Source of the DNA: Alphaproteobacteria bacterium
Lineage (GTDB): Bacteria > Pseudomonadota > Alphaproteobacteria > Reyranellales > Reyranellaceae
Assembly (NCBI GenBank): GCA_019239835.1
Contig: JAFAZJ010000178.1
Location: forward strand, 1 to 34,077
Direction: 5' to 3'
DNA: 34,077 nt
Under the pieces are notes generated by a model, which did not search any database, had not been told where the DNA came from, and saw only the letters and a list, made by a program, of their open reading frames with translations. The translations under genes and the position numbers were made by a program. Positions 6,126-34,077 of this stretch are shown here, one piece after another. Position 1 is the stretch's first letter, and each line of letters begins with the position of its first letter.

Positions 6126-8056
6126 TGAAGCGCTGGGTGATCGCCGTGATCTGTGCGGTCCTGTGGGCCGGCACAGGCATGGCACAGCCGGCGCCGAAGG
6201 AAACCGCGCTGTTCGCCGACAAGGTGAAGGCGGGACAGATGCCGCCGGTCGAGCAGCGCCTGCCGCAATCGCCCCTGGTCGTGACCGAGTTCGCCGGCAA
6301 GGACGGCCCCGGCAAGCAGGGCGGCGAGATCACCATGCTGATGGCCACGCCGCGCGACGTGCGCATGATGGTGGTCTACGGCTACAGCCGGCTGGTGGGC
6401 TTCAACCACAAGTTCGAGCTCAAGCCCGACATCCTCGAGAGCGTCAACGTCGAGCAGGGGCGGATCTTCACCCTGAAGCTGCGGCCGGGACACAAATGGT
6501 CCGACGGCGAGCCGTTCACGACGGAGGACTTCCGTTACTTCTGGGAGGACGTCGCCAACAATGAGGACCTGTCGCCGGTGGGCCCGCCGATCGAGATGAT
6601 GGTCGACGGCAAGCCGCCGAAGATCGACATCATCGACGCCACGACCATCAGATACACTTGGGATCAGCCCAATCCCGGCTTCCTGGAGGCCCTTGCCCGA
6701 CCCTCGCCGCTGTTCATCTTCCGGCCGGCGCACTACCTCAAGAAGTTCCACAAGAAGTACGCCGATCCGGCATTCCTCGATAAGGTGCTCAAGGAGTCCG
6801 GCCCGCGCGGCTGGGCGCCGCTGCACAATCGCCTCGACGACATGTACCGCAACGAGAACCCGGACCTGCCGACGCTCGAGTCGTTCGTGCTGAAGACGAA
6901 GCCGCCGTCGCAGCGTTTCGTCTTCGAGCGCAATCCGTACTATCACCGCGTCGACAGCCAGGGCACGCAACTGCCCTATCTCGATCGCATCGTGATGAAC
7001 ATCGCCAGCGCCCAGCTGATCTCGCTGAAGGCCGGCTCCGGCGAAAGCGACCTGCAGGCGCGCTACCTCAAATTCTCGGACTACACGTTCCTGCGCAAGG
7101 GCGCGAAGCAATTCGGCTTCGAGGTGAAGCTGTGGGACACGGCTTTGGGCAGCAACATCGCCATCTTCCCGAATCTTACCGTCAAGGATCCGGTGTATCG
7201 CGCACTGTTTCGGGAGGCCAATTTCCGGCGCGCGCTGTCGATGGCAATCGATCGCGAGGAGATCAACGAGCTGCTCTATATCGGCCTGGCGCAGCCCTCG
7301 CAGAACACGGTGCGCCCGCAATCGCCGCTCTATCGTCCCGAATACGCGAGCAAGTGGGCCAATTTCGACATCAAGGAGGCCAACCGGCTGCTCGACAAGA
7401 TCGAGTTCAAGTGGGCCGACGGCAAGACGGGTACGATCCGCAAGCGCGACGAGCTAGGCATCCGCCTCTTGCCCGATGGCAGGCCGCTGCACATCCTGCT
7501 GGAGACGGACGGGCAAGTGAGCGAGGAGGCCGACGTGCTGCAGCTGGTTGCCGACACCTGGAAGCAGGTCGGTATCAAGCTGTACGTGCGGGCCCGCGAT
7601 CGCCAGGATCTCCGCGCCCGGCTCTATGCCGGCGAGACGCAGATGACGGTCGACAATGGATGGGAGAATGGCCTTGCCAGCGCCACGTCCAACCCGGCCG
7701 ACCTCGCCTGTCTGACCCAGACCACGAGGTGGTGCTCGGCCTGGGGGCAATACCGCGACACCTATGGCAAGTCGGGCGAACCGGTCGACTTGCCGAGCGT
7801 CCAGCACATGAATGAGCTGGCTGAGAAGTGGGAGAAATCTTCCGATCCCAAGGAGCAGGAAAAGATCTGGCACGAGCTGCTGCAGGCGCATGCCGATCTG
7901 GTGTTCACGATCGGCATCGTGTCGGGCGTTCAGCAGCCGGTGGTGAGGAGTCCGCGTCTGCGCAACGTGCCGGACAAGGGCATCTACAACTGGATCCCCA
8001 CGTCGCACTTCGGGGCCTACCGGCTCGACTCGTTCTGGCTGGATGGCGCGCGATGA
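6122..8056 (+). CDS. Family 5 extracellular solute-binding protein of peptide-type ABC importer
   Basis: A 644-residue periplasmic binding protein that should deliver ligand to the adjacent permeases. The N-terminus is a signal peptide: K3-R4, a hydrophobic core WVIAVICAVLW, and a likely cleavage after GMA (residue 21). SBP family 5 features include the segment KLRPGHKWSDGEPFTTEDF and the motif RRALSMAIDREEINELL. At 644 residues it is about 100 longer than DppA or OppA. Two closely spaced Cys (LACLTQTTRWCSAW) near the C-terminal third may form a disulfide. Substrate is unknown: peptides, opines, oligosaccharides and other large solutes are all handled by this family. ATG 6122 overlaps the ATPase stop (ATGA); ATG 6125 is an equally possible initiator. 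The downstream small gene overlaps its stop. Confidence 0.92.
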   Translation: MMKRWVIAVICAVLWAGTGMAQPAPKETALFADKVKAGQMPPVEQRLPQSPLVVTEFAGKDGPGKQGGEITMLMATPRDVRMMVVYGYSRLVGFNHKFELKPDILESVNVEQGRIFTLKLRPGHKWSDGEPFTTEDFRYFWEDVANNEDLSPVGPPIEMMVDGKPPKIDIIDATTIRYTWDQPNPGFLEALARPSPLFIFRPAHYLKKFHKKYADPAFLDKVLKESGPRGWAPLHNRLDDMYRNENPDLPTLESFVLKTKPPSQRFVFERNPYYHRVDSQGTQLPYLDRIVMNIASAQLISLKAGSGESDLQARYLKFSDYTFLRKGAKQFGFEVKLWDTALGSNIAIFPNLTVKDPVYRALFREANFRRALSMAIDREEINELLYIGLAQPSQNTVRPQSPLYRPEYASKWANFDIKEANRLLDKIEFKWADGKTGTIRKRDELGIRLLPDGRPLHILLETDGQVSEEADVLQLVADTWKQVGIKLYVRARDRQDLRARLYAGETQMTVDNGWENGLASATSNPADLACLTQTTRWCSAWGQYRDTYGKSGEPVDLPSVQHMNELAEKWEKSSDPKEQEKIWHELLQAHADLVFTIGIVSGVQQPVVRSPRLRNVPDKGIYNWIPTSHFGAYRLDSFWLDGAR

Positions 8057-8337
8057 CCAGCCCGCCACGCTTCGCGATCCACGACATGCGCAGCATCGAC
8101 GCCGCACGGCGTCGGCGCTCGCGGCACTGGGATTTCCGCTTCGTCATGGCCGTGCTGCTGCTCTACGGCTGCCTTGGCGTAGCGTTCTTCGCCGTCGAAT
8201 GGATGCACACTGTGCCCGACAACAAGCCGCCTACCGCTCAGGAGCTGAGGGACTGGAGCACGGCGCGCGGCCTGCATCCGGTCGTGCGCCCGCTCGCGCT
8301 CGAGCCGCCGGGCAGTGGTCCGGCGGAGGGGCGCTGA
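8053..8337 (+). CDS. 94-residue single-helix membrane protein inside the ABC operon
   Basis: Small protein not recognised as any known transporter subunit. It has an Arg-rich N-terminal segment (AARRRRSRHWDFR), one hydrophobic helix at about residues 30-48 (FVMAVLLLYGCLGVAFFAVEW), and a Pro-rich C-terminal tail of about 45 residues. By the positive-inside rule the N-terminus is cytoplasmic and the tail periplasmic. ATG 8053 overlaps the stop of the binding-protein gene (ATGA) and the permease start follows after three bases, so translation is probably coupled on both sides. Position and topology suggest an accessory subunit of the importer. The overlap and packing argue that it is a real gene; its function is unknown. 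Confidence 0.72.
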   Translation: MTSPPRFAIHDMRSIDAARRRRSRHWDFRFVMAVLLLYGCLGVAFFAVEWMHTVPDNKPPTAQELRDWSTARGLHPVVRPLALEPPGSGPAEGR

Positions 8338-23881: not shown

Positions 23882-24664
23882 ATGCGTAGTCCAACGCGGC
23901 CGGGCACCGGCCTCGATGTCGCGCTGTTCGTCACCTGCCTCGTCGATATGTTCCGTCCCTCCGTCGGTTTCGCCGCCGCGAAGCTGCTGGAGGACGCGGG
24001 CTGCCGCGTGGTCGTCCCTGATGCGCAGACCTGCTGCGGCCAGCCGGGCTACAACTCCGGCGATCGCGCCGACGCCATCGCCATCGCGCGCCAGGTGATC
24101 GAGGCTTTCGAGGGCTACGACTACGTCGTCGTGCCGTCGGGTTCCTGCGGCGGAATGATCTCCCACCACTATCCAGCGCTGTTCGCCGACGAGCCCGCGA
24201 TGAAGGCGCGCGCGGAGAAGTTGGCGTCGCGCACGCACGAGCTCACCGGCTTCCTCGTCGACGTACTGGGCGTTGCACCGACGCCGACGCGGTGCGACGC
24301 GACCGTGACGTATCACGATTCATGTTCGGGTCTGCGCGAGCTGGGCGTGAAGGCACAGCCGCGCCAGCTCCTCGCCGGCGTCGAAGGCGTCAAGCTGGTC
24401 GAGATGACAGGTGCCGAGATCTGCTGCGGCTTCGGCGGCACGTTCTGCGTGAAGTACCCCGACATTTCCAACGCCATGCTCGACGACAAGGTCGCGGATA
24501 TCGCCGCGACGGGGGCCGGGACCTTGCTCGCTGGTGACTTGGGCTGCCTGCTGAACATGGCGGGCAAGCTGCAGCGCGAAGGCAGACCGGTGAAGGTGCG
24601 CCATGTCGCCGAGGTGATCGCCGGCATGACCGACGAGCCGGCGATCGGCGAGCCCGCGCCATGA
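23882..24664 (+). CDS. lutA: LutA-type (Fe-S)-binding lactate-utilisation protein
   Basis: A 260-residue subunit of the LutABC (LldEFG) L-lactate oxidation complex, which passes electrons from lactate to the respiratory chain. It has two cysteine-rich CCG-type domains: the first spans VTCLVDMFRPSVG to QTCCGQPGYNSG and PSGSCGGM; the second has YHDSCSGLRELG, EICCGFGGTFCV and GDLGCLLN. All typical Cys positions are present. The start follows the mltA stop by six bases, and the stop overlaps the lutB ATG (ATGA). It acts in the cytoplasm or at the membrane surface. Heterodisulfide reductase-like proteins share the CCG motif, but the LutB and LutC neighbours settle the identity. Confidence 0.93.
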   Translation: MRSPTRPGTGLDVALFVTCLVDMFRPSVGFAAAKLLEDAGCRVVVPDAQTCCGQPGYNSGDRADAIAIARQVIEAFEGYDYVVVPSGSCGGMISHHYPALFADEPAMKARAEKLASRTHELTGFLVDVLGVAPTPTRCDATVTYHDSCSGLRELGVKAQPRQLLAGVEGVKLVEMTGAEICCGFGGTFCVKYPDISNAMLDDKVADIAATGAGTLLAGDLGCLLNMAGKLQREGRPVKVRHVAEVIAGMTDEPAIGEPAP

Positions 24665-26088
24665 AATCGACGGCGCACGCCTTCAAGGACAATGTCGGCG
24701 AGGCGCTGCGCGACACCAATCTGCAGCAGTCTCTGTCGATCATGAAGGTGGGCTTCGTCGAGCGTCGGCGCGGCGCCGTCGAGCGCATGCCGGAGTTCGA
24801 AGCGCTGCGCGATCGCGCCCGCGACATCAAGAACCACGCGCTGGCGCATCTCGACTTCTACCTGGAGCGCTTCGAGCAGAAGGTGCTGGCGCTGGGCGGC
24901 CACGTGCACTGGGCGCCGACGGCGGAAGACGCGCGGCGCATCGTGCTCGACCTCTGCCAGCAGGCCAATGCGCGCACGGTGGCGAAATCGAAGTCGATGA
25001 TTGCCGAGGAGATCGGGCTCAACGAGCATCTCGAGGCGCATGGCATCGCGCCGATCGAGACCGATCTGGGCGAGTACATCATCCAGCTGCGTCAGGAACC
25101 GCCCAGCCACATCATCGCGCCCGCGGTGCACCTGACCAAGGACCAGGTCGCCGACACTTTCCACGAGCATCACAGCAAGCTGGGCTTCACCCGCCGGCTG
25201 ACCGAGCGCAACGATCTCGTGGCCGAGGCGCGCCACGTGCTGCGGCAGAAATTCCAGCAGGCCGATGTCGGCATTACCGGCGCCAATTTCCTGGTCGCCG
25301 AGACCGGCAGCTCGATGCTGGTGACCAACGAAGGCAATGCCGATCTCTCGAACACACTGCCGAAGACACACATCGTCATCGCCAGCATCGAAAAAGTGAT
25401 CCCGACCCTGGAAGACGCCGCCACGCTGTTGCGCGTGCTGGCGCGCTCGGCCACAGGCCAGGAATGGTCGAGCTATACCACGTTCAACACCGGGCCGAAG
25501 CGTTCAGGCGATCCTGATGGGCCGCAGGCCTATCACGTCGTGTTGCTCGACAACGGCCGCAGCAACGTGCTGGGCAGCGAGATGCAGGACATGCTGCGCT
25601 GCATCCGCTGCGGCGCCTGCATGAACCATTGCCCGGTCTATGGCGCGATCGGCGGGCATGCCTATGGCTGGGTCTATCCCGGGCCGATCGGTGCGGTGCT
25701 CGACCCGCAGCTGCTGGGGCTGGAGGAGGCGGGTAATCTGCCCAACGCCTCGACGTTCTGCGGCCGCTGCGAGAGCGTCTGCCCGGTGCGCATCCCGTTG
25801 CCCAAGCTAATGCGCCACTGGCGTGAACGCGAGTTCGAGCATCACCTGACGCCGCCGACCGTGCGCAAGGCGCTCGGGTTATGGGCTTTCCTCGCGAAGC
25901 GGCCCAAGCTCTATCGCGCCGCCACCGGCATCGCCAATCGCGCGCTGGCATTGTTCGGCCGCGCCGAGGGCCGCTACGACGCGTTGCCCCTGGCCGGTGG
26001 CTGGACCAGGCATCGCGACATGCCGGCACCACAGGCCGGCGGCACCTTTCATGCGCAATGGAAAGCGCGCGGCGGGGCGACTCGATGA
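24661..26088 (+). CDS. lutB: LutB-type iron-sulfur lactate-utilisation protein
   Basis: A 475-residue subunit of the lactate oxidation complex. The N-terminal two-thirds is the LUD domain (about 70-290: AKSKSMIAEEIGLNEHLEAHG split, GANFLVAETGSSMLVTNEGN). Then come two 4Fe-4S-type clusters: C314-x2-C317-x2-C320-x3-C324 and C367-x2-C370-x3-C374-P. The conserved WVYPGPIGAVL lies between them. The C-terminal 100 residues are helical and less conserved. It overlaps lutA and lutC by 4 nt each, so the subunits are probably made in fixed ratio. Homologues are B. subtilis LutB and E. coli YkgF. Confidence 0.95.
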   Translation: MKSTAHAFKDNVGEALRDTNLQQSLSIMKVGFVERRRGAVERMPEFEALRDRARDIKNHALAHLDFYLERFEQKVLALGGHVHWAPTAEDARRIVLDLCQQANARTVAKSKSMIAEEIGLNEHLEAHGIAPIETDLGEYIIQLRQEPPSHIIAPAVHLTKDQVADTFHEHHSKLGFTRRLTERNDLVAEARHVLRQKFQQADVGITGANFLVAETGSSMLVTNEGNADLSNTLPKTHIVIASIEKVIPTLEDAATLLRVLARSATGQEWSSYTTFNTGPKRSGDPDGPQAYHVVLLDNGRSNVLGSEMQDMLRCIRCGACMNHCPVYGAIGGHAYGWVYPGPIGAVLDPQLLGLEEAGNLPNASTFCGRCESVCPVRIPLPKLMRHWREREFEHHLTPPTVRKALGLWAFLAKRPKLYRAATGIANRALALFGRAEGRYDALPLAGGWTRHRDMPAPQAGGTFHAQWKARGGATR

Positions 26089-26756
26089 ATGCGCGCGAGC
26101 AAATGCTGGGCGCGATCCGCCGTGGCCTGCGCCGCGGCGAGCTTGCCGGCGAGGCGCGCGCTGCCGCTGAAACGCGCCTGGCCGAGCATCCTGTCAACAT
26201 TGTACCCAAGCGCTCACAAATCCCGCGCGAGCGGCAGATCGACCTATTCGAGGAGGGCGCCAAGGCGGTCCACGCCACGGTGGCGCGCGTCGCCAGCACC
26301 GAGGTCGCGAGCGCCGTCACCGACTATCTCGCCGCCAACAACCTGCCCGCCGCCGCCGTGATGGCGCCCGATCCGGCGCTCGACCGCTACGGCTGGAAGG
26401 ACCGGCCGATGCTGGAAATCCGCCGCGGCCTGCCGGTCGACGCCGATCGTGTGGCGATCACCGGCGCCTTTGCCGGCGTGGCCGAGACCGGCACCCTGAT
26501 CTTCACCTCAGGGCCCGACCATCCAACATCGCTGAACCTGTTGCCCGAGACCCATGTCGTGATCTTGCGCGAGGACGATCTCGTCGGCGCCTACGAGGAG
26601 GTCTTCGCTCGCCTGCGCGCGCGCTACGGCGAGGGTTCGATGCCGCGTACGGTCAACACCGTAACCGGCCCGTCGCGCACCGCCGATGTCGAGCAACAGC
26701 TCGAGCTCGGTGCCCACGGTCCGCGCCGCATGCATATCCTCATCGTGCGCGACTGA
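26085..26756 (+). CDS. lutC: LutC-type lactate-utilisation protein
   Basis: A 223-residue protein with a single LUD domain and no Fe-S cluster, third subunit of the LutABC system. The family features are GAFAGVAETGTLIFTSGPDHP (split by a loop), TSLNLLPETHVVIL and, near the end, TGPSRTADVEQQLELGAHGP. Residues 1-60 are helical and variable (RRGLRRGELAGEARA). ATG 26085 overlaps the lutB stop (ATGA). Neither the LutR-type regulator nor a lactate permease is found in the window, so control and uptake must lie elsewhere. The gene order A-B-C is canonical. Confidence 0.94.
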   Translation: MNAREQMLGAIRRGLRRGELAGEARAAAETRLAEHPVNIVPKRSQIPRERQIDLFEEGAKAVHATVARVASTEVASAVTDYLAANNLPAAAVMAPDPALDRYGWKDRPMLEIRRGLPVDADRVAITGAFAGVAETGTLIFTSGPDHPTSLNLLPETHVVILREDDLVGAYEEVFARLRARYGEGSMPRTVNTVTGPSRTADVEQQLELGAHGPRRMHILIVRD

Positions 26757-26770
26757 GCTGGGGGCCGACG

Positions 26771-27499
26771 ATGGGCGCGCCCAAGCAGCTCAAGATCGTC
26801 GGCACGGCGGCCACGCGCGAAATCGCCACGATGCTCGAAGCCGTGGCGACATCGACCGGCAAGAGGAAGATCCAGGTTCTGCAGGTCGGCGCGCGCAGTC
26901 ATCCTGCCGAGCGCGGCGAACACCACTGGCGCCATCTGGTCGCGGACAAGCTCGGCAAACGGACCAAATTCACCGGCGTCGACAGCAGCGCCGGGGCCAA
27001 TGTCGACATCGTCTGTGCTGATTTCGCCGAACTCCATCGTAAGCTTAATCCTCAGGCATTCGACCTCGTGATCTGCGACCGACTGCTGGAACACACCAAA
27101 GCCCCATGGCGCGTCACCGCGCAGCTTCAGCAGCTTCTGGCGCCCGGCGCTCACCTGTTCGTCCGCGTCGCCTGGGCGCGCGCGCACCACGCCGAGCCGG
27201 ACGACTACTGGCGCATGTCCTTCGCCGGCGTGATGCAGCTGTTCGACGGGCTGAAACCGGTGTCGCTGTTCTATACCGGTGGCGCCGTCGGTCTCGACAT
27301 CGCCTACCGCGTGACACGCGGCGATGCCGTCGAGATCTCGCCGGCGATCGGCGCCGTCGAGCAAGGATTGTTCCAGGTCGTGCTTGACCACGAGGCCAAC
27401 CGGGCCATGCTGGCGAACCAGGCCGGTCAGCGTTACCCCCTGTCGCGGGACTACCTGCCGACCATGTTTGTCAACGTCGTCGCCCGGCGGGAGCCCTGA
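26771..27499 (+). CDS. Class I methyltransferase-like protein with degenerate SAM loop
   Basis: A 242-residue protein with a Rossmann methyltransferase outline. Motif I appears as LQVGARSHPAERG, where the usual GxGxG is not intact; an acidic residue follows in FTGVDSSAG. A VDIVCADFAEL and FDLVICDRLLEHT pair matches motifs II and IV of Methyltransf_11-type enzymes, and LLAPGAHLFVRV matches the later strand. SAM binding may therefore be altered. It lies 14 bases after lutC and two bases before an amino-acid-binding protein gene, hence in the same transcript. The substrate and any link with lactate use are unknown. Confidence 0.68.
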   Translation: MGAPKQLKIVGTAATREIATMLEAVATSTGKRKIQVLQVGARSHPAERGEHHWRHLVADKLGKRTKFTGVDSSAGANVDIVCADFAELHRKLNPQAFDLVICDRLLEHTKAPWRVTAQLQQLLAPGAHLFVRVAWARAHHAEPDDYWRMSFAGVMQLFDGLKPVSLFYTGGAVGLDIAYRVTRGDAVEISPAIGAVEQGLFQVVLDHEANRAMLANQAGQRYPLSRDYLPTMFVNVVARREP

Positions 27500-27501
27500 C
27501 G

Positions 27502-28305
27502 ATGCGATCCATCCTCGCCGTACTCCTGGTCCTGATCGCGACGAGCGCATCGGCCCAGCAGGTGAAACCGCCACAGACGCCGCCGGCGCCCGCACCCGCG
27601 GCGCCCTTGCCGCAGGCGGTGCGGCTGAAGGTGATCGTCGACCTGTCCGAGCCGCTGTTCGCCAAGAGATCGCCGGAAGGCAAGCTCGTTGGCTTCGACA
27701 TCGATCTGCTGAACGCCCTGTGCTCGCGGCTGAAGGCCGACTGCATCATCGAGGCTGTCGACTGGGACGATCTGCGGGCCGATATTGCGGCCGGCAAGGC
27801 CGATCTGGCCGGCGGCGGCATCAGGACCGGCAGCCTGCCGGCTGAGCGCAGTGTCTTTGCGGCGCCCTATGGCCGCGTGCCGCTCGCCATCGTCGTGCGC
27901 AAGGGTACAAAGCTCGAGGCGACACCGGCGGGCCTGAAGGACAAGCGCATCGCCGTGCAGCGTTCGACGCGCTGGGGCCAATGGATGAAGCAGTCTGGTA
28001 TCGCGACTGTGGTCGAGTTCGAGACCCCTGAAGAGGTCAAGGCCGCCCTGATCGCCGAGAAGGTCGATGGCGCGCTGATTGATCGCATCAGCACGGCGTC
28101 CTGGCTGGCTGGCCCGGCCGGTGCCTGCTGCGAAATGGCCAAGCCGGAGATCCGCGAACCCGATGCCACCGGTCCGAACCTCGCCCTGCTCCTGCGCTCC
28201 GACATCAAGCTGAAAGAGATGATCGAGAAGGCGATGACCGGTCTGCGCAGCGACGGCACGATTCAGAAGCTCGTGGCCAAACATCTGCCATTTCCGTTGA
28301 TATAG
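27502..28305 (+). CDS. Family 3 periplasmic solute-binding protein, orphan (copy 1)
   Basis: A 267-residue protein with a signal peptide (MRSILAVLLVLIATSASAQQ) and a Pro/Ala-rich linker (PPQTPPAPAPAAPLPQ), then the PBP type II fold. It resembles cationic amino-acid-binding proteins such as ArgT/HisJ: an LC-x6-C pair (LCSRLKADC), the VDWDDL segment, RTGSLPAER with conserved Arg, and a late NLALLLRSD. The GACC vicinal Cys pair near residue 210 is shared with the next protein. It is more diverged from ArgT than copy 2 (SxxxT is replaced by GGIRTG). No permease or ATPase gene is near, so it may feed a remote transporter or act as a sensor. Confidence 0.84.
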   Translation: MRSILAVLLVLIATSASAQQVKPPQTPPAPAPAAPLPQAVRLKVIVDLSEPLFAKRSPEGKLVGFDIDLLNALCSRLKADCIIEAVDWDDLRADIAAGKADLAGGGIRTGSLPAERSVFAAPYGRVPLAIVVRKGTKLEATPAGLKDKRIAVQRSTRWGQWMKQSGIATVVEFETPEEVKAALIAEKVDGALIDRISTASWLAGPAGACCEMAKPEIREPDATGPNLALLLRSDIKLKEMIEKAMTGLRSDGTIQKLVAKHLPFPLI

Positions 28306-28314
28306 AATGGCGTG

Positions 28315-29211
28315 ATGCGAATCGGGGCGCGCACGAGGCTTCTCGTTGCTGCGACGACGCTTGTCGTCGCGCTGGCGGTGATCTGTCCGCCGGTAACCGA
28401 GGCGCAGCAACAGGGCTCGACGACACAGCCGCCCGCGCCGCCGCCGCGGCCCAAACCGGTCACGCCGCCGCAAAAGACCAAGCCGAGCCAGAAACCGCCG
28501 CCGGCGCCGGCGCTCAAGGCCACGGTGGTGACCGAGGGCAAGTTCCCGCCCTTCAACATGGTCGATGCCCAGGGCCGTCCCGCCGGCTTCGAGGTCGACC
28601 TCGCCAACGAGCTGTGCAAGCGCGCCAAGGTCGAGTGCCGCATCGTCACCGCGTCGTGGGACGACATCCTCCCGGGCCTGCTCGACAAGCGTTACGACGC
28701 GATCATGGCGTCGATGGACATGACGCAGGAGCGCCGGCGACAGATCAGCTTCAGCAAGCGCTACATGCTGGTGCCGGGCGCTTTCGTTGCGCCCAAGAGC
28801 GCCGCGGTACCCGACGGCGCACCGGCGCTGCTGCGCGGCAAGACGGTGGGCGTGCAGCGCGGCACGATCTATGCCGATTATCTCGAGCGCACGTTCCGCA
28901 AAGCCGTGCGCACGAAGGGCTTCGCGAACGCCGACGAGGCGCGCAAGGAGCTGGTCGCGGGCAAGCTCGACGCCGTGCTGGGCGACAAGGTCTCGCTGTG
29001 GCAGTGGCTGAAGACGTCGGACGGCGCCTGCTGCGACTTCTTCGGCCAGGACGTGAAGGACACGCGCACTCTGGGCGACGGCGTCGGCATCGGCTTCCGC
29101 AAGGACGACGCCAAGCTGCGCGATGCCTTCAACAAGGCGCTGGCCGAGACTGTCGCGGATGGAACGCTGAAGCGCCTCGCCGACAAATACCTCCCCTTCG
29201 CGATCTACTGA
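28315..29211 (+). CDS. Family 3 periplasmic solute-binding protein, orphan (copy 2)
   Basis: A 298-residue tandem paralogue of the preceding protein. After a signal peptide (RLLVAATTLVVALAVICPP, cleavage near TEAQQ) comes a 35-residue Pro/Lys-rich linker, then the binding domain: LCKRAKVEC, SWDDILPGL, SMDMTQERRRQISFS, GVQRGTIYADYLER, LDAVLGDK and the family end GDGVGIGFRKDD...AFNKALAE. This matches the ArgT/HisJ group closely, so the ligand is probably a basic or polar amino acid. It shares the unusual GACC motif with copy 1. ATG 28315 is favoured over GTG 28312. The next gene starts two bases after its stop. Confidence 0.87.
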   Translation: MRIGARTRLLVAATTLVVALAVICPPVTEAQQQGSTTQPPAPPPRPKPVTPPQKTKPSQKPPPAPALKATVVTEGKFPPFNMVDAQGRPAGFEVDLANELCKRAKVECRIVTASWDDILPGLLDKRYDAIMASMDMTQERRRQISFSKRYMLVPGAFVAPKSAAVPDGAPALLRGKTVGVQRGTIYADYLERTFRKAVRTKGFANADEARKELVAGKLDAVLGDKVSLWQWLKTSDGACCDFFGQDVKDTRTLGDGVGIGFRKDDAKLRDAFNKALAETVADGTLKRLADKYLPFAIY

Positions 29212-29213
29212 CC

Positions 29214-30362
29214 ATGCGCCCGATCCTTGTCGCCCTGCTCCTCGCCCTGTCGCCGATTGCGATCGCCGCCGCGCAGGAGAAGGCGCCGACGCAGCGCAAC
29301 TGGTCGACCGAAGGCCGCGAACCGCAATGGCGCGCGCGCTTCGAGGCACAGGGCGCTGGCTCGATCGAAACCATGACGGTCCTCAAGTGGGATGCAACAG
29401 GGGTCGTGGTCGCCGTTCGCGAAGGCGAGAGCGACGACAAACCCACCTTCATCGAGCGCCGCGACGGCGCGGGGCAGAGGGTCTGGCGTCAGCCGGTGCC
29501 CGGGCTGCCGGCGAAGTACCAGGCGTTCAGTCTGGTGCGGATCGAGGGCAAGACGCGCGCCGAGCTCACCCTGGCGGCCGTGTTCAATCCCACGGATGCC
29601 AAGCCCGGTGACCCGTTCGCGCGCATCATCGAGGTCGATATCGCCAAGGGCGCGCTCAGCATTGTCGGCAGCTTCCCGTATCCCAAGAAGAGCCGCGACA
29701 CGCCCGACGACTGGCTCGAACTGACCCATGCCAAGGTGCTGCCCTCAGGTCAAATCGTCTTCTTTGGCGGCGTCGGCCCGGGACCGGTCTGGTGGTGGGT
29801 CGGCCTGCGCAAGCCCGACGGAACGCCGCTCTGGGATCTGGTCAGCCGGCGCGGCATCGGGCAGGTCGTCGACCTGCGGCAGGACGGCGACGGGTTCGAC
29901 GCGCTGGTCGTCAACATCATGTCGCAGGATGGTGAGCGCGGCACCGGCACGTTCCGCCTGCGCATCAACGCGGCAGGGCAGGTCGTCGGCAGTATCAAGC
30001 TGTGGCAGCGCGAAAGCGGCCCACGCTTCACGCCCGACGGCGGCATGGCGTATGTCATGTTCCATGAGAAGTTGCCGGCGGTCATCCATGTTCTGGATCG
30101 CCAGGGGCGTCAGCGTTTCACACGGACGCTGCCCGTCGACGTCTATGGCGTCGATCGTTGTCTCGACGACGGAACCATCGTGATGGGACGCGACAACGGG
30201 TACCTGTTCCTCGCTGCCGACGGCAACTCCATGATGGTCATCTCCGGCGCCGACTACGGCATGAATATCCTGCCTGACGGCAGGATCGCCTACGCCCAGT
30301 GCGAACGCCAGGAACAGGGCTGCAAGGTCATGACGCTGTCGCTATACGACCGGCCGCGCTGA
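29214..30362 (+). CDS. Exported beta-propeller-like protein of unknown family (paralogue A)
   Basis: A 382-residue protein I cannot assign. It has a signal peptide (RPILVALLLALSPIAIAAAQ). The mature chain is rich in beta segments with blade-like motifs ending in Gly-x-x-x-Trp: DGAGQRVWRQ, PDGTPLWDL and DRQGRQRFTR. A notable WWW stretch lies in GPGPVWWWVGLR. The C-terminus has ILPDGRIAY and a C-x6-C pair (CERQEQGC), then DRPR. It is clearly homologous to the product encoded at 31095, which shares QPVPGLP, GxGPxxWWV, TGxFRxR and ILPDGRI. Likely a periplasmic PQQ-type propeller without identified cofactor. It follows the binding protein by two bases and so shares its transcript. Confidence 0.78.
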   Translation: MRPILVALLLALSPIAIAAAQEKAPTQRNWSTEGREPQWRARFEAQGAGSIETMTVLKWDATGVVVAVREGESDDKPTFIERRDGAGQRVWRQPVPGLPAKYQAFSLVRIEGKTRAELTLAAVFNPTDAKPGDPFARIIEVDIAKGALSIVGSFPYPKKSRDTPDDWLELTHAKVLPSGQIVFFGGVGPGPVWWWVGLRKPDGTPLWDLVSRRGIGQVVDLRQDGDGFDALVVNIMSQDGERGTGTFRLRINAAGQVVGSIKLWQRESGPRFTPDGGMAYVMFHEKLPAVIHVLDRQGRQRFTRTLPVDVYGVDRCLDDGTIVMGRDNGYLFLAADGNSMMVISGADYGMNILPDGRIAYAQCERQEQGCKVMTLSLYDRPR

Positions 30363-30386
30363 CTGATTGCATCGAAAGTGCGACGG

Positions 30387-30608
30387 CTAGTGGATGGTCT
30401 GGCCGAAGCGCCACCGCACCTCGAAGCCCAGCTCGGTCTGCAGCTGAACCTGCGCCTCGTGTCCGCGCGCCTCGTCCGCTGCCGCTGCATCGCGTGCGCG
30501 TTTGAGCGCGGTGTCCTGGTCGGTATTGCCTTCGACGGCACCGTCATTCAGCCGTACGCCCCAGTCGTTTTCGCCGTCGCTCACGACGTAATATATTCTG
30601 TGTGCCAT
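30387..30608 (-). CDS. DUF2188-like small protein
   Basis: A 73-residue protein on the opposite strand to its neighbours. The start chosen has its complement at 30606-30608 and is preceded by a strong GGAGG ribosome-binding sequence about six bases upstream; an ATG four codons earlier is less well placed. The pattern (HRIYYVVSDGENDWGVRLND, then a helix TALKRARDAAAADEARGHE and a strand AQVQLQ) resembles DUF2188 domains, which are small alpha-beta proteins of unknown function. The match is from pattern only. It lies between the two propeller-like paralogues, convergent with the first. Confidence 0.62.
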   Translation of the reverse strand: MAHRIYYVVSDGENDWGVRLNDGAVEGNTDQDTALKRARDAAAADEARGHEAQVQLQTELGFEVRWRFGQTIH

Positions 30609-30808
30609 GGCTCCCTCCATTTTGGAGAAAGTCGCATCCGCGTCGTTGGTTCCCGCTGCGATGGCCGGGATAGATTTTGTGGCTCACAGCAGCAGCGACG
30701 CGCATTACTGCGAACACGCGTCGTTGATCAGTGAATTTGTGGGATTCGGGAACCCGCGCGTGGACCAAAGGTTGTCAGTCGAGGCCTGCCGCCTCGAGGC
30801 AATGCGCG

Positions 30809-31075
30809 ATGAACGCCTGGGTCCTGTCCTTGATCATCTGCTCGGCGACGCCGCTGCCCGGTGGCGGCTACTGCGAGACGCGGGCGGTCGACTATGGGAT
30901 GAGCCGCGAGCAGTGCAGCGCCGCGCTGGCCGTCGAGACCCGGCGGATCAGGCCGCCGATGCGCCTGGAATGCACCGAGGATCCGGCGCTGTCGGCGGAG
31001 TTGGAGGAGATGGACCACGACGGCCAGAGCCAGCCGGCTCCGCCCGCGCCAGCCACGATGCGTCGCCGGCGCTGA
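30809..31075 (+). CDS. Small exported cysteine-containing protein
   Basis: An 88-residue protein supported by a GAGG ribosome-binding sequence (30796-30799) nine bases before ATG 30809. The first 15 residues (MNAWVLSLIICSATP) form a short hydrophobic leader. The next segment has Cys residues in GGGYCETRAVDYGMSREQC and MRLECTED, and the C-terminus is Pro/Ala-rich and basic. Such short Cys-containing leader proteins without a known role recur in Hyphomicrobiales genomes, in my recollection. The upstream in-frame ATG at 30731 would add 26 residues without export-signal character. A lipobox is not evident. It ends 19 bases before the propeller-like paralogue B gene. Confidence 0.5.
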   Translation: MNAWVLSLIICSATPLPGGGYCETRAVDYGMSREQCSAALAVETRRIRPPMRLECTEDPALSAELEEMDHDGQSQPAPPAPATMRRRR

Positions 31076-31094
31076 AGGGTGTTAGCATGCGGCG

Positions 31095-32267
31095 ATGTCC
31101 CTTCGCCGCCGACCGCTCCTGGCCGCTGCCGCTCTGACGGTTCTGCCGCGGGACGGCGCATCGCAAAGTGATCTGCCCCGCCCCGTTCCCCTGACGATCA
31201 AGCGAGACCAATGGGCTGCCGCTGTCGAGTGGCGGAGCCCCATCAGTGCGCGCGAAGGCTTCAGCGTCGCCGCGGTGGAGGTGGTGCGTCGGTGCGATGA
31301 TGGGGTGCTTCTCCTGATACGCGAGGAGCCGCCGCGCAATGTTGACGAGCCCGCCATCCAGCACGTCCGGCTGGAACGCCGCGACGCGACGGGACGAATC
31401 CTGTGGCAGCAGCCGGTGCCCGGTCTGCCAGGCCGCTTCGGCAGATTCCGCGCCAGGTATCTCGCCGGGACAGGATCGCAGGCATCGCTGCTGGTCACGA
31501 CCTTCCTGCCGTTCGACCACAGGAAGCAGGCGGCCTACGGCCGTGTCGTCGAGGTCGATGAGGCGAGCGGCCGAATGCGGCCCTTGGGCGGCATCGCCCG
31601 GCCGCGGACGCGGGAATGGATCGAGGACGAGGCGATCGAGCTCGACGGCGCGCTGCGCCTGGAGGGCGGACGGGTCGCTCTGCATGGCGGCTTCGGCAGC
31701 GGGCCGTTCTCGTGGTGGGTCGCGCTGATGCGTCTCGACGGGACGTTGCTATGGCAGACGATCGGCCCGACTTCGGCCGGCGAGGTGACGGCACTGCGCG
31801 CCGTGCCCGGCGGTTTCGAAGGCAGCCTGCACATCATCATCGCCTGGCCGGCGGGCGCGAAGACCGGCGTGTTCCGCATGCGCTTCGACGAGGCGGGCCG
31901 GGTTGTCGGCAGCGTGTGGATCGCGGACCATATCAACCCGCTATTCGCGCCGGACGGTTCGGTCATCAGCCTGAACGAGGGTCCGCCACGGGTGCTGGTC
32001 ATCGAGGATCGTTACGGCCGGCACCGATCGGTCGCCGCGCTGCCGGACAATGTCGTCCTGCGCCATCGCCTGGATGACGGTGCGCTGGTGCTGATCGATG
32101 ATGATGACCATGATTTGGTCGTATCGGGGGATGGCCGCAGCGCAATCCGCATCGAGCGCGATTTTCGCTCCGACACCATCCTGCCCGACGGCCGCATCTT
32201 CACCACGACCTGCGCCGAGTTTGACTGCATCACGCGCGAGCTTGCGCTGTACAAGCGGCCGTGGTGA
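31095..32267 (+). CDS. Exported beta-propeller-like protein of unknown family (paralogue B)
   Basis: A 390-residue homologue of the product encoded at 29214. The N-terminus SLRRRPLLAAAALTVLP carries consecutive Arg before a hydrophobic stretch, so Tat-type or Sec-type export is possible. Shared blocks in the same order are QPVPGLP, FGSGPFSWWVALMRLDGTLLW, TGVFRMRFDEAGRVVGS, PLFAPDGS and TILPDGRIFTTTC; the C-terminal Cys pair is C-x4-C (CAEFDC). An acidic run (IDDDDHD, about residues 335-341) is absent from paralogue A. The two proteins are diverged, so the duplication is old or the second came separately. It is convergent with the hydrolase gene, with only four bases between stops. Confidence 0.75.
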   Translation: MSLRRRPLLAAAALTVLPRDGASQSDLPRPVPLTIKRDQWAAAVEWRSPISAREGFSVAAVEVVRRCDDGVLLLIREEPPRNVDEPAIQHVRLERRDATGRILWQQPVPGLPGRFGRFRARYLAGTGSQASLLVTTFLPFDHRKQAAYGRVVEVDEASGRMRPLGGIARPRTREWIEDEAIELDGALRLEGGRVALHGGFGSGPFSWWVALMRLDGTLLWQTIGPTSAGEVTALRAVPGGFEGSLHIIIAWPAGAKTGVFRMRFDEAGRVVGSVWIADHINPLFAPDGSVISLNEGPPRVLVIEDRYGRHRSVAALPDNVVLRHRLDDGALVLIDDDDHDLVVSGDGRSAIRIERDFRSDTILPDGRIFTTTCAEFDCITRELALYKRPW

Positions 32268-32271
32268 GCGC

Positions 32272-33411
32272 CTAGCGGTCGCCTAGCAGTTTGCCGCGCC
32301 GCCCGGGTATGGACTGCGGGCTGGCGACCTTGGCGACGCGGTCGCCAGCCTTGGCGAGGTCCGGCCGCATACGCGCGAACATCGTGCCGGCCACCGGCGC
32401 CTTCAGCGCCAACCGCCCGGCGTCGGCCGGCAGCATCGGATCGATCAGATGACCGACGATCTGACCAGCCGTCACGCGCGTGCCCGGCTCGACGCACGGC
32501 ACCCACAGCCCGGCATGCGGCGTGCGGACCGGCCCCACACCGTCGAGCGGCGTCGCCGGACAGGGCGCCACGGCCGGCGGCGCCTTGCCCGAAATCGCGC
32601 CACGCGCCTGCAGCCAGTCGAAGATGCCGTCCGCGTCGCGCTGGGCCGTCGCATCGTCGATATCGGCGCGGCCGCGCAGCTCGACGGTGCAGGAGATCAT
32701 CGCGTCGTTGGGGATCGGCTTGTCCTGATAGCGCTCCATCAGCCGCCACCACGGCCGCGTGAGCGCCTCGTCGAAGGGCGTGTCACCGGAATCCCCGGCC
32801 GTGAGCAGGGCTGCGGCGCCGAGGCGCGCGGCGAGGTCGGCGAAAGCGACGGCCTGGCGCGGGCCGCAGTAGATGTGCAGCGCCGCCTGGTCGTCGCAAT
32901 GCAGGTCGAGCGCGATGTCGGCGGTTGCGGCGAGGCGATGCAGGGTAAGCTTGAGGATCGCGCTCTCGTCGTCGGCCTTGTGCTCGGCCAGCAGCGCTTC
33001 GATCGTCGCGCGGATCGCGGTGACGTTGGCGGCCGCGTCGTTGCCGAGCTTCCCGGCCATCGCTTCTTCGAGCGCATCGCGCAGGTCGAGAAAGCCGCGG
33101 TTGAAATTGCCCGAGCCGTCGAGTGCGTAGCGGCCCTGCAGGACGCTGCCGACGACCTGGGTCAGGCCCACCGGATTGGCGAAGGGCGCCACCATGATCT
33201 CGCCGGGGATCTGGCCGTTGCGGTCGGCCTCGGCGAGCTTCGGCATCAAATGATGCAGCACCAACGGGCCGGGTAGCTCGTCGGCGTGGATCGCCGCCTG
33301 CAGCCAGACGCGCGGTCGCGCGCCCTTGCGACCGAAGCGGTGGACGACGAGGTGGCGTTCCGTGCCCGGCGACGGCGAGGGCAGCACAATACGCTCGATG
33401 GTACGCGCCAT
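32272..33411 (-). CDS. Succinylglutamate desuccinylase/aspartoacylase-family hydrolase
   Basis: A 379-residue zinc-dependent amidohydrolase of the AstE/ASPA group, which hydrolyses N-acyl amino acids. The metal site is H42-A-D-E45 (usually HGDE or HGNE; His and Glu are kept), with the third ligand in the later DLHCDD. A catalytic Glu candidate lies in SCTVELRG. The C-terminal 90 residues form a biotinyl-lipoyl-like beta domain (PGTRVTAGQIVGHLIDP and LKAPVAGTMFARM). This size and layout fit members more distant from E. coli AstE. It lies two bases downstream of the creatininase gene on the same strand, so the two are one operon. The substrate is unknown. Confidence 0.88.
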   Translation of the reverse strand: MARTIERIVLPSPSPGTERHLVVHRFGRKGARPRVWLQAAIHADELPGPLVLHHLMPKLAEADRNGQIPGEIMVAPFANPVGLTQVVGSVLQGRYALDGSGNFNRGFLDLRDALEEAMAGKLGNDAAANVTAIRATIEALLAEHKADDESAILKLTLHRLAATADIALDLHCDDQAALHIYCGPRQAVAFADLAARLGAAALLTAGDSGDTPFDEALTRPWWRLMERYQDKPIPNDAMISCTVELRGRADIDDATAQRDADGIFDWLQARGAISGKAPPAVAPCPATPLDGVGPVRTPHAGLWVPCVEPGTRVTAGQIVGHLIDPMLPADAGRLALKAPVAGTMFARMRPDLAKAGDRVAKVASPQSIPGRRGKLLGDR

Positions 33412-33413
33412 GC

Positions 33414-34077
33414 TTAGACCGGCTCAGTCCACAGACGCTCGTTGAGCAGCGCCTCGGCGACGTCGGCCGAGATCGCCGTCAGCATCTTCTCGCCTTTCTC
33501 GGCGCTGGCGGCGGAGGCGTCGCCGATCACGCCGATCGGCGAGCGGCTCGACAATTGGCGCCAGCGATAGACGCCTTCGTTCACGGTCGGGATCGCCGCC
33601 AGGCCGGGAATATAGGGCCCGTGCATCTGCGACAGCTCCTGCGGGTCCACCAGCTCCGGCGTCATCGCCATGATCATCGAGGTTTCGGCCTCGCAGGCAT
33701 GCAACAGCGCCTTCTGTTTCTCCAGCAGCTTGGCGATCGACTTCGCGGCGATGTCCCAATATGTGCCGGTGGCCAGCGGCAGCTTGGTCTCGACGGTGAG
33801 CTCGCCGATCATGTTCTGCAGCGCCGTCGTGTTGCCGCCATGGCCGTTGAGCACGAAGATGCGCTTGAAGCCGTGGCGGATCGCCGACATCACGACGCAG
33901 CGGATCACCGCGTTCATCGTCGCGTAGTCGAGCGTGATGGTGCCGTTGAGCGACATGTGATGCTCGGACATGCCGTAGGGGATCGTCGGTACCACGATGG
34001 TCGGATGCTTGCCGGTCATGATGCGGGCCGCGCGGTGCGATACCTCGTGCACACAGCGGTAGTCGACCATGGTCGGC
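33414..34077 (-). CDS. Creatininase-family amidohydrolase, N-terminus beyond the window
   Basis: The visible 221 residues end at the stop on the left and stay open to the window edge, where the frame reads PTMVDYRC before the first ATG at 34070. Creatininase-family proteins are about 250-270 residues and begin with an acidic and HLP-x-TD motif that is missing, so this gene is cut and ATG 34070 is not the start. Family motifs are PTIPYGMSEHH, LNGHGGN and HACEAETSMIM (metal-binding Glu and His). Such enzymes open cyclic amides such as creatinine, or amides in other pathways. The partner gene downstream is an aspartoacylase-type hydrolase, suggesting stepwise breakdown of an amide. Confidence 0.9.
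   Translation of the reverse strand, partial: PTMVDYRCVHEVSHRAARIMTGKHPTIVVPTIPYGMSEHHMSLNGTITLDYATMNAVIRCVVMSAIRHGFKRIFVLNGHGGNTTALQNMIGELTVETKLPLATGTYWDIAAKSIAKLLEKQKALLHACEAETSMIMAMTPELVDPQELSQMHGPYIPGLAAIPTVNEGVYRWRQLSSRSPIGVIGDASAASAEKGEKMLTAISADVAEALLNERLWTEPV

Follow-up and report, generated by a model that had tools for sequence, protein, structure and literature searches.

The alkylating enzyme CylK combines an N-terminal Ca2+-binding domain, which carries the catalytic Arg105, with a beta-propeller whose Tyr473 lies beside it (PMC8916777). AztD, the zinc chaperone of the AztABC importer, is a periplasmic eight-bladed beta-propeller with conserved histidine (His) zinc sites and a disulfide, and it transfers zinc straight to AztC, a solute-binding protein (PMC6689063). 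On the function of DUF5122 propellers, the literature found was a methods paper only, the accessible part of which says nothing. Here we describe two genes, P1 and P2, that lie in a 34,077-nucleotide stretch (the window) from an alphaproteobacterium of the family Reyranellaceae, order Reyranellales (assembly GCA_019239835.1, contig JAFAZJ010000178.1, positions 1 to 34,077 of the forward strand). P1 and P2 form an uncharacterised, lineage-restricted branch of a known wider group of propellers, with a common fold.

29214..30362, plus strand: P1, predicted exported beta-propeller of 382 amino acids (aa); intact open reading frame (ORF), BLASTP paralogue of P2, AlphaFold2 model
31095..32267, plus strand: P2, predicted exported beta-propeller of 390 aa; intact ORF, BLASTP paralogue of P1, AlphaFold2 model

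Judged by sequence, P1 and P2 are paralogues with a similarity far beyond chance, sharing 119 of 351 aligned residues (34%; BLASTP, E 5e-56). This bears out an earlier note on this DNA, which had proposed the paralogy from shared sequence blocks and a C-terminal Cys pair, and all of these could be located in both proteins. Specifically, QPVPGLP lies at residue 93 in P1 and 106 in P2, GxGPxxWWV at 188 and 201, DGTxLW at 202 and 215, TGxFRxR at 244 and 257, and ILPDGRI, which includes one PDG, at 352 and 362; an additional PDG lies at 274 and 286. The Cys pair is unequally spaced, being CX6C in P1 (Cys363/Cys370) and CX4C in P2 (Cys373/Cys378), and in the P1 model its two residues sit one on each strand of the last hairpin. 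The exact blocks are no fixed family signature, because the P2 orthologue in G005, a genome of the same genus, keeps only DGTxLW letter for letter at 59% identity to P2, the others being replaced by QAVPGLP, GTGPFRWWI, VGGFRMR and ILADGTI. In many Reyranella-type members of the family (L013, L015, L083-L095) the Cys pair is a different one, placed elsewhere along the protein (around residues 323-350, 7-8 apart), so the disulfides of the two groups seem to have separate origins. The export signals were assessed by eye. P1 begins with a Sec-like signal, and its residues 1-21 are modelled with a predicted local distance difference test score (pLDDT) below 50. P2 begins with RRRPLL, a twin-arginine-like start.

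The AlphaFold2 models, built from a 12-row alignment of the window proteins and named relatives, are all-beta with 29 strands each (P1, pLDDT 80.3 and predicted template modelling score (pTM) 0.77; P2, pLDDT 76.0 and pTM 0.74). Foldseek returns 404 matches in the PDB for P1 and 459 for P2 at E <= 0.001 (best E 4e-9 and 3e-8), and the rows listed that could be placed by name are propellers. In VIA-align, the top match of both models is the C-terminal propeller of CylK (PDB 7fh6, 7ron; Z 18.9 for P1 and 19.9 for P2), next to which stands YncE, a seven-bladed propeller of E. coli (Z 18.4 and 17.8), with Sec12 and WD40 domains close too. The Z values of YncE are tied with those of other propellers, and it shares the fold with P1 and P2 but only about 8% identity, with no sequence-level match found. 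Four-stranded blades and matches to solved propellers are found in both models. Additionally, the self-alignment of the family profile gives six off-diagonal pairs with scores from 107.6 down to 24.2, the next alignment scoring 11.6 and the best of each of six column-shuffled profiles 9.7-11.8. Six such pairs imply seven repeats, independently of the AlphaFold2 models. P1 and P2 are therefore predicted to be seven-bladed beta-propellers, within the six to eight blades that the earlier note had named for a structure-prediction check. Its description of exported, propeller-like proteins is thus supported for the fold, and for export it looks right by eye.

The earlier note had also called the family unknown, which is true of curated collections but not of remote kinship. 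P1 and P2 have no match of weight in Pfam, NCBIfam, PHROGs (best 0.015) or PADLOC, and together with the family profiles A1 and A2 none among PDB sequences (best 0.038, a designed protein). Pfam over the 18 rows of A1 likewise gives nothing of weight (best 0.0038, one row each). Neither delta-60 repeat model (TIGR02608, PF17164) matches P1 or P2 at E <= 1, and their relative L013 matches one at 0.057, below the cut-off. Literature searches on Reyranella or delta-60 propellers found no paper on the family, and a P2 search of viral contigs and of plasmids found no relative. On the other hand, a 37-row family profile aligns with four delta-60-like proteins over 301 columns at E 5.7e-14 (profile-profile), compared with 7.9e-4 for a BamB control built from PF13360 proteins of five relatives in the same order, 0.25 for the reversed delta-60 profile and 0.017-0.86 for reversed profiles overall. 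With 34- and 3-row family profiles, the BamB comparison gives 0.061 and 0.15. P1 and P2 are tied to these proteins by way of the other 34 family rows (E 2e-20), and the delta-60-like profile matches the seven-bladed propeller of CylK at E 6e-29. By eye, the family and the delta-60-like proteins also have a similar repeat, rich in Gly and closing with ..W..K.D..G...W, which is clearest in the blade with GxGxGPxxWW. We read the family as a divergent, remote relative of delta-60-like and CylK-type propellers.

With an 18-member profile (E <= 1e-10), the family is present in 28 of the 76 genomes of the order, at 41 places. A scan of named genomes gave seven family loci among 77 pattern matches, from Reyranella (two), Vineibacter terrae and four metagenome bins assigned to Alphaproteobacteria, Rhodospirillales (two) and Asaia. 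Beyond the order, P2 matches one of 385 genomes of the class at E <= 1e-6, the source genome itself, and the A1 profile matches two of 398 genomes of the phylum (E <= 1e-5) and three of 385 of the class (E <= 1e-4). The wide-scan hits besides the source genome are of another kind, delta-60-like propellers by sequence. These scans scored at most four candidates per genome and may miss distant members; own-family genomes with many candidates went unmatched, though some genomes of the order match. Within the genomes scanned, the family appears nearly confined to the Reyranella-related order. Tandem copies occur at L034 and L032, in Vineibacter terrae and Reyranella sp. CPCC 100927. The latter has two; the former has two that are full-length, plus a short third ORF (about 112 aa) that begins and ends like the family.

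A tree of 37 of the 44 distinct hits, the sample that also underlies the conservation counts, separates P1, P2 and the G005 copy, at 100/100 support, from the remaining 34 rows. Seven hits were excluded: three of less than 331 residues, namely a cut P2 copy and two partial ones; another three that were cut duplicates; and L031, a generic propeller. L087 was trimmed to its last 392 residues, and four partial or broken of the 41 places in the order are absent. P2 and the G005 copy are sisters (98/82), and P1 stands outside on a long branch, of the kind that the tree program flags. Since P2 pairs with the G005 copy to the exclusion of P1, the duplication seems to predate the divergence from G005, where P1 would then have been lost.

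The genes around P1 and P2 belong to a run that ends in two solute-binding proteins and to a convergent pair beyond P2:

23882..26756, plus strand: LutA (CCG domain), LutB (above the TIGR00273 cut-off) and a LutC-like gene; upstream part of the run
26771..27499, plus strand: methyltransferase-like gene (Pfam), same run
27502..28305, plus strand: SBP1, solute-binding protein of family 3 (SBP_bac_3 in Pfam/NCBIfam), diverged paralogue of SBP2
28312..29211, plus strand: SBP2, solute-binding protein of family 3 (SBP_bac_3 in Pfam/NCBIfam)
30809..31075, plus strand: small ORF of 88 aa (conservation in G004, codon-position differences)
32272..33411, minus strand: AstE/AspA-type deacylase (Pfam), convergent with P2 with 4 bp between the stops; right border of the slot
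33414..34070, minus strand: creatininase-family hydrolase (Pfam), truncated by the contig end

The name LutC-like is our presumption, the gene having a LUD-like stretch in common with LutB. P1 starts 2 bp past the SBP2 stop in the same direction, and this spacing suggests that SBP2 and P1 are on one transcript. The earlier note saw SBP1 and SBP2 as a second duplicated pair; both are indeed SBP_bac_3 proteins, but in relatives each matches the region of the other at about 27-36%, so no recent tandem duplication is involved. At E <= 1e-60, SBP2 is matched in 71 of the 76 genomes of the order. The run from lutA to the binding proteins (23882-29211) contains no transporter gene. In G005, an ABC transporter (an ATPase, two permease-type frames and a third family-3 binding protein) lies past the creatininase gene, and the window contig stops short of that position.

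Comparison of four genomes of the genus (the window genome, G003, G004 and G005) defines a variable slot between SBP2 and the AstE/AspA gene. All four retain the lutA-lutB-lutC-methyltransferase-SBP1-SBP2 run together with the convergent AstE/AspA gene; the adjoining creatininase gene was found in three, and not in the G004 piece examined. In this slot, the window has P1, the 88-aa ORF and P2; G005 has P2 only, starting 64 bp after SBP2; G004 has the 88-aa ORF only; and G003 has neither propeller nor 88-aa ORF, its short minus-strand ORF (L059, about 7905-8171) carrying an EF-hand-like DANGDG and matching nothing in Pfam at E <= 0.001. The slot thus seems to collect genes for small exported proteins. 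The G004 slot DNA is 78% identical over 630 bases to the window stretch between P1 and P2, and the 88-aa ORF is 71.6% identical at the aa level in G004. Because its third-position changes outnumber the others (14/12/28 differences of 88 each), this ORF is probably coding, a real small secreted protein. It has a possible signal sequence and several Cys; a longer frame overlapping it (30731-31072) matches nothing in Pfam or NCBIfam. Two further ideas were rejected, with nothing below 0.01 by profile or tblastn (best 0.014): that 30363-31094 holds a third copy or a remnant, and that remnants of P1 or P2 persist in the slots of G003, G004 and G005.

At least 85% of the 37 rows agree in 27 columns, of which 18 hold Gly, Pro or Trp and none His, Cys or Glu; no column has His in all three members of the P1/P2 clade, and none in 19 of the 37 rows. 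The lack of family-wide His, Cys or Glu argues against a metal site built on His and against a large catalytic centre common to the family. Of the blocks, GxGxGPxxWW is the strongest, and it is confined to one middle blade, as we infer a binding surface would be. Between P2 and its G005 orthologue, the ratio of nonsynonymous to synonymous divergence (dN/dS) is 0.42 with dN 0.33, compared with dN of 0.03-0.18 in six neighbouring genes, relative to which the dS of P2 is also highest. P2 is accordingly under purifying selection, constrained yet fast-evolving.

Tentatively, we propose that P1 and P2 are seven-bladed, delta-60/CylK-related accessories of SBP1 and SBP2, which would bind and hand over without being enzymes. 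Specifically, they would be made together with SBP1 and SBP2 at the end of the lactate-utilisation-type operon and would act as non-catalytic proteins of the periplasm. The propeller face bearing the conserved Gly-Pro-Trp loop (GxGxGPxxWW) would hold a ligand or partner and either store it for the adjoining binding proteins or pass it on to them, while the C-terminal Cys pair may lock the last blade as a disulfide between strands. Co-transcription, periplasmic location, lack of catalysis and the binder role for the binding proteins are all what we infer. P1 and P2 look accessory, because two of the four genomes of the genus have the lut-SBP run and neither propeller gene behind it. AztD is likewise a periplasmic propeller with a disulfide that acts on a solute-binding protein (PMC6689063), and only this mode of working is borrowed here. 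Unlike AztD, P1 and P2 have no conserved His and seven predicted blades, and the neighbouring binding proteins are of family 3.

Several observations weigh against this proposal. The conserved neighbours sought by the earlier note were found for P2, in both of the two genomes that have it, but P1 was found in one genome only and P2 itself in two of the four of the genus, and the wider family sits elsewhere, its neighbours being gatB, a luciferase-like monooxygenase or a 2-hydroxyacid dehydrogenase. A partnership with binding proteins therefore cannot be the general role of the family. Three genomes of the four, namely the window genome, G003 and, with a partial copy, G005, have a further family member at another locus; a luciferase-like monooxygenase and a 2-hydroxyacid dehydrogenase flank the one of the window genome (C202, one copy), and the same flanks surround three tandem copies in G002 (L070 6188-9996). 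An opposite-strand gene recurs at 22 of 31 family loci and is GatB in the one member scanned (L102); a 116-151 aa 'conserved neighbour' at 22 of 31 loci was rejected as most likely an antisense shadow, lying in L102 inside gatB on the other strand. On the side of kinship, CylK is absent at E <= 10 from the direct PDB-sequence search with A1 and A2, and the three-member clade reaches the delta-60-like proteins directly at E 1.1e-4 only. Those four proteins had been selected as top outside matches to the family profile, a choice that favours the later score, and they match the delta-60 repeat model only below its cut-off (three) or not at all (one). The clade profile alone has a weak self-repeat score of 22.9. 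The root-mean-square deviations (rmsd) of the structural matches are high, mostly 5-12 Å in Foldseek and 3-5 Å in VIA-align, and because the latter accompany high Z values we take the matches as fold-level and no proof of kinship. Finally, an Arg (R250/R263, the single family-wide Arg counted outside the signal) and an Asp (D355/D365) are conserved family-wide and in both P1 and P2, and 101 columns, many of them Arg, Asp or Glu, are identical across the three clade members; a clade-specific enzyme is therefore conceivable.

That P1 and P2 are structural or envelope scaffolds for protein interaction, similar to BamB or YncE and unrelated to the transport genes, in a slot that merely takes up small exported-protein genes, is possible though somewhat doubtful. 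A general scaffold role is nearly as likely as hand-over to binding proteins, because most of the family lives at other loci. The differing slot contents of the four genomes (both propellers with the small ORF, P2, the small ORF, or another short ORF), the occurrence of family copies in at least three genomic settings, and the faster evolution of P2 relative to its six neighbours, with its dS also highest, are what a scaffold without a tie to transport has in its favour. However, the codirectional start of P1 directly behind SBP2 and the kept position of P2 in both genomes that have it are points against such independence, and BamB is not close by profile in any of the three comparisons above.

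Propellers of the size of P1 and P2 are often enzymes, and the two proteins could be periplasmic lactonase- or lyase-like hydrolases acting on the operon substrate, which we hold to be unlikely. CylK, both the best structural match and the closest solved relative of the delta-60-like group, is an enzyme, but its active site needs the N-terminal domain (PMC8916777). P1 and P2 lack such a domain, being single-domain proteins in which the propeller fills nearly all of the 382 and 390 aa. The Arg, Asp and Glu conserved within the clade suit an enzyme, whereas the family has no His or Glu column and only one Asp column kept in both proteins. No SGL- or GSDH-type Pfam model matches P1 or P2 at E <= 1, and Pfam GSDH, looked for in the source genome, was not found (0 of 1).

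Still less probable is the narrower form of our proposal, in which P1 and P2 would be a dedicated periplasmic relay of a small organic solute to the two family-3 binding proteins of the lactate-type operon, working as AztD does on AztC though without metal, and installed by gene gain and loss in the variable slot. An identity as pyrroloquinoline quinone (PQQ)-dependent or other quinoprotein enzymes, to which the propeller fold and a sub-cut-off PQQ_2 match of a distant relative (the L071 copy of the source genome, E 0.0011) might point, is very improbable, since P1 and P2 match no PQQ model in Pfam at E <= 1, PQQ_2 (PF13360, the BamB criterion) included, a match that the earlier note had itself named as refuting its view, and the tryptophan-docking pattern that we take to mark such enzymes was not found in any of the three clade members.

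Taken together, these findings link an unnamed, lineage-restricted family of exported propellers to the delta-60-like and CylK-type propellers, and they place P1 and P2 in a defined genomic slot whose presence and absence patterns can be compared among close relatives. If the partnership with SBP1 and SBP2 is true, P1 and P2 would add to the instances in which a propeller supplies an importer.

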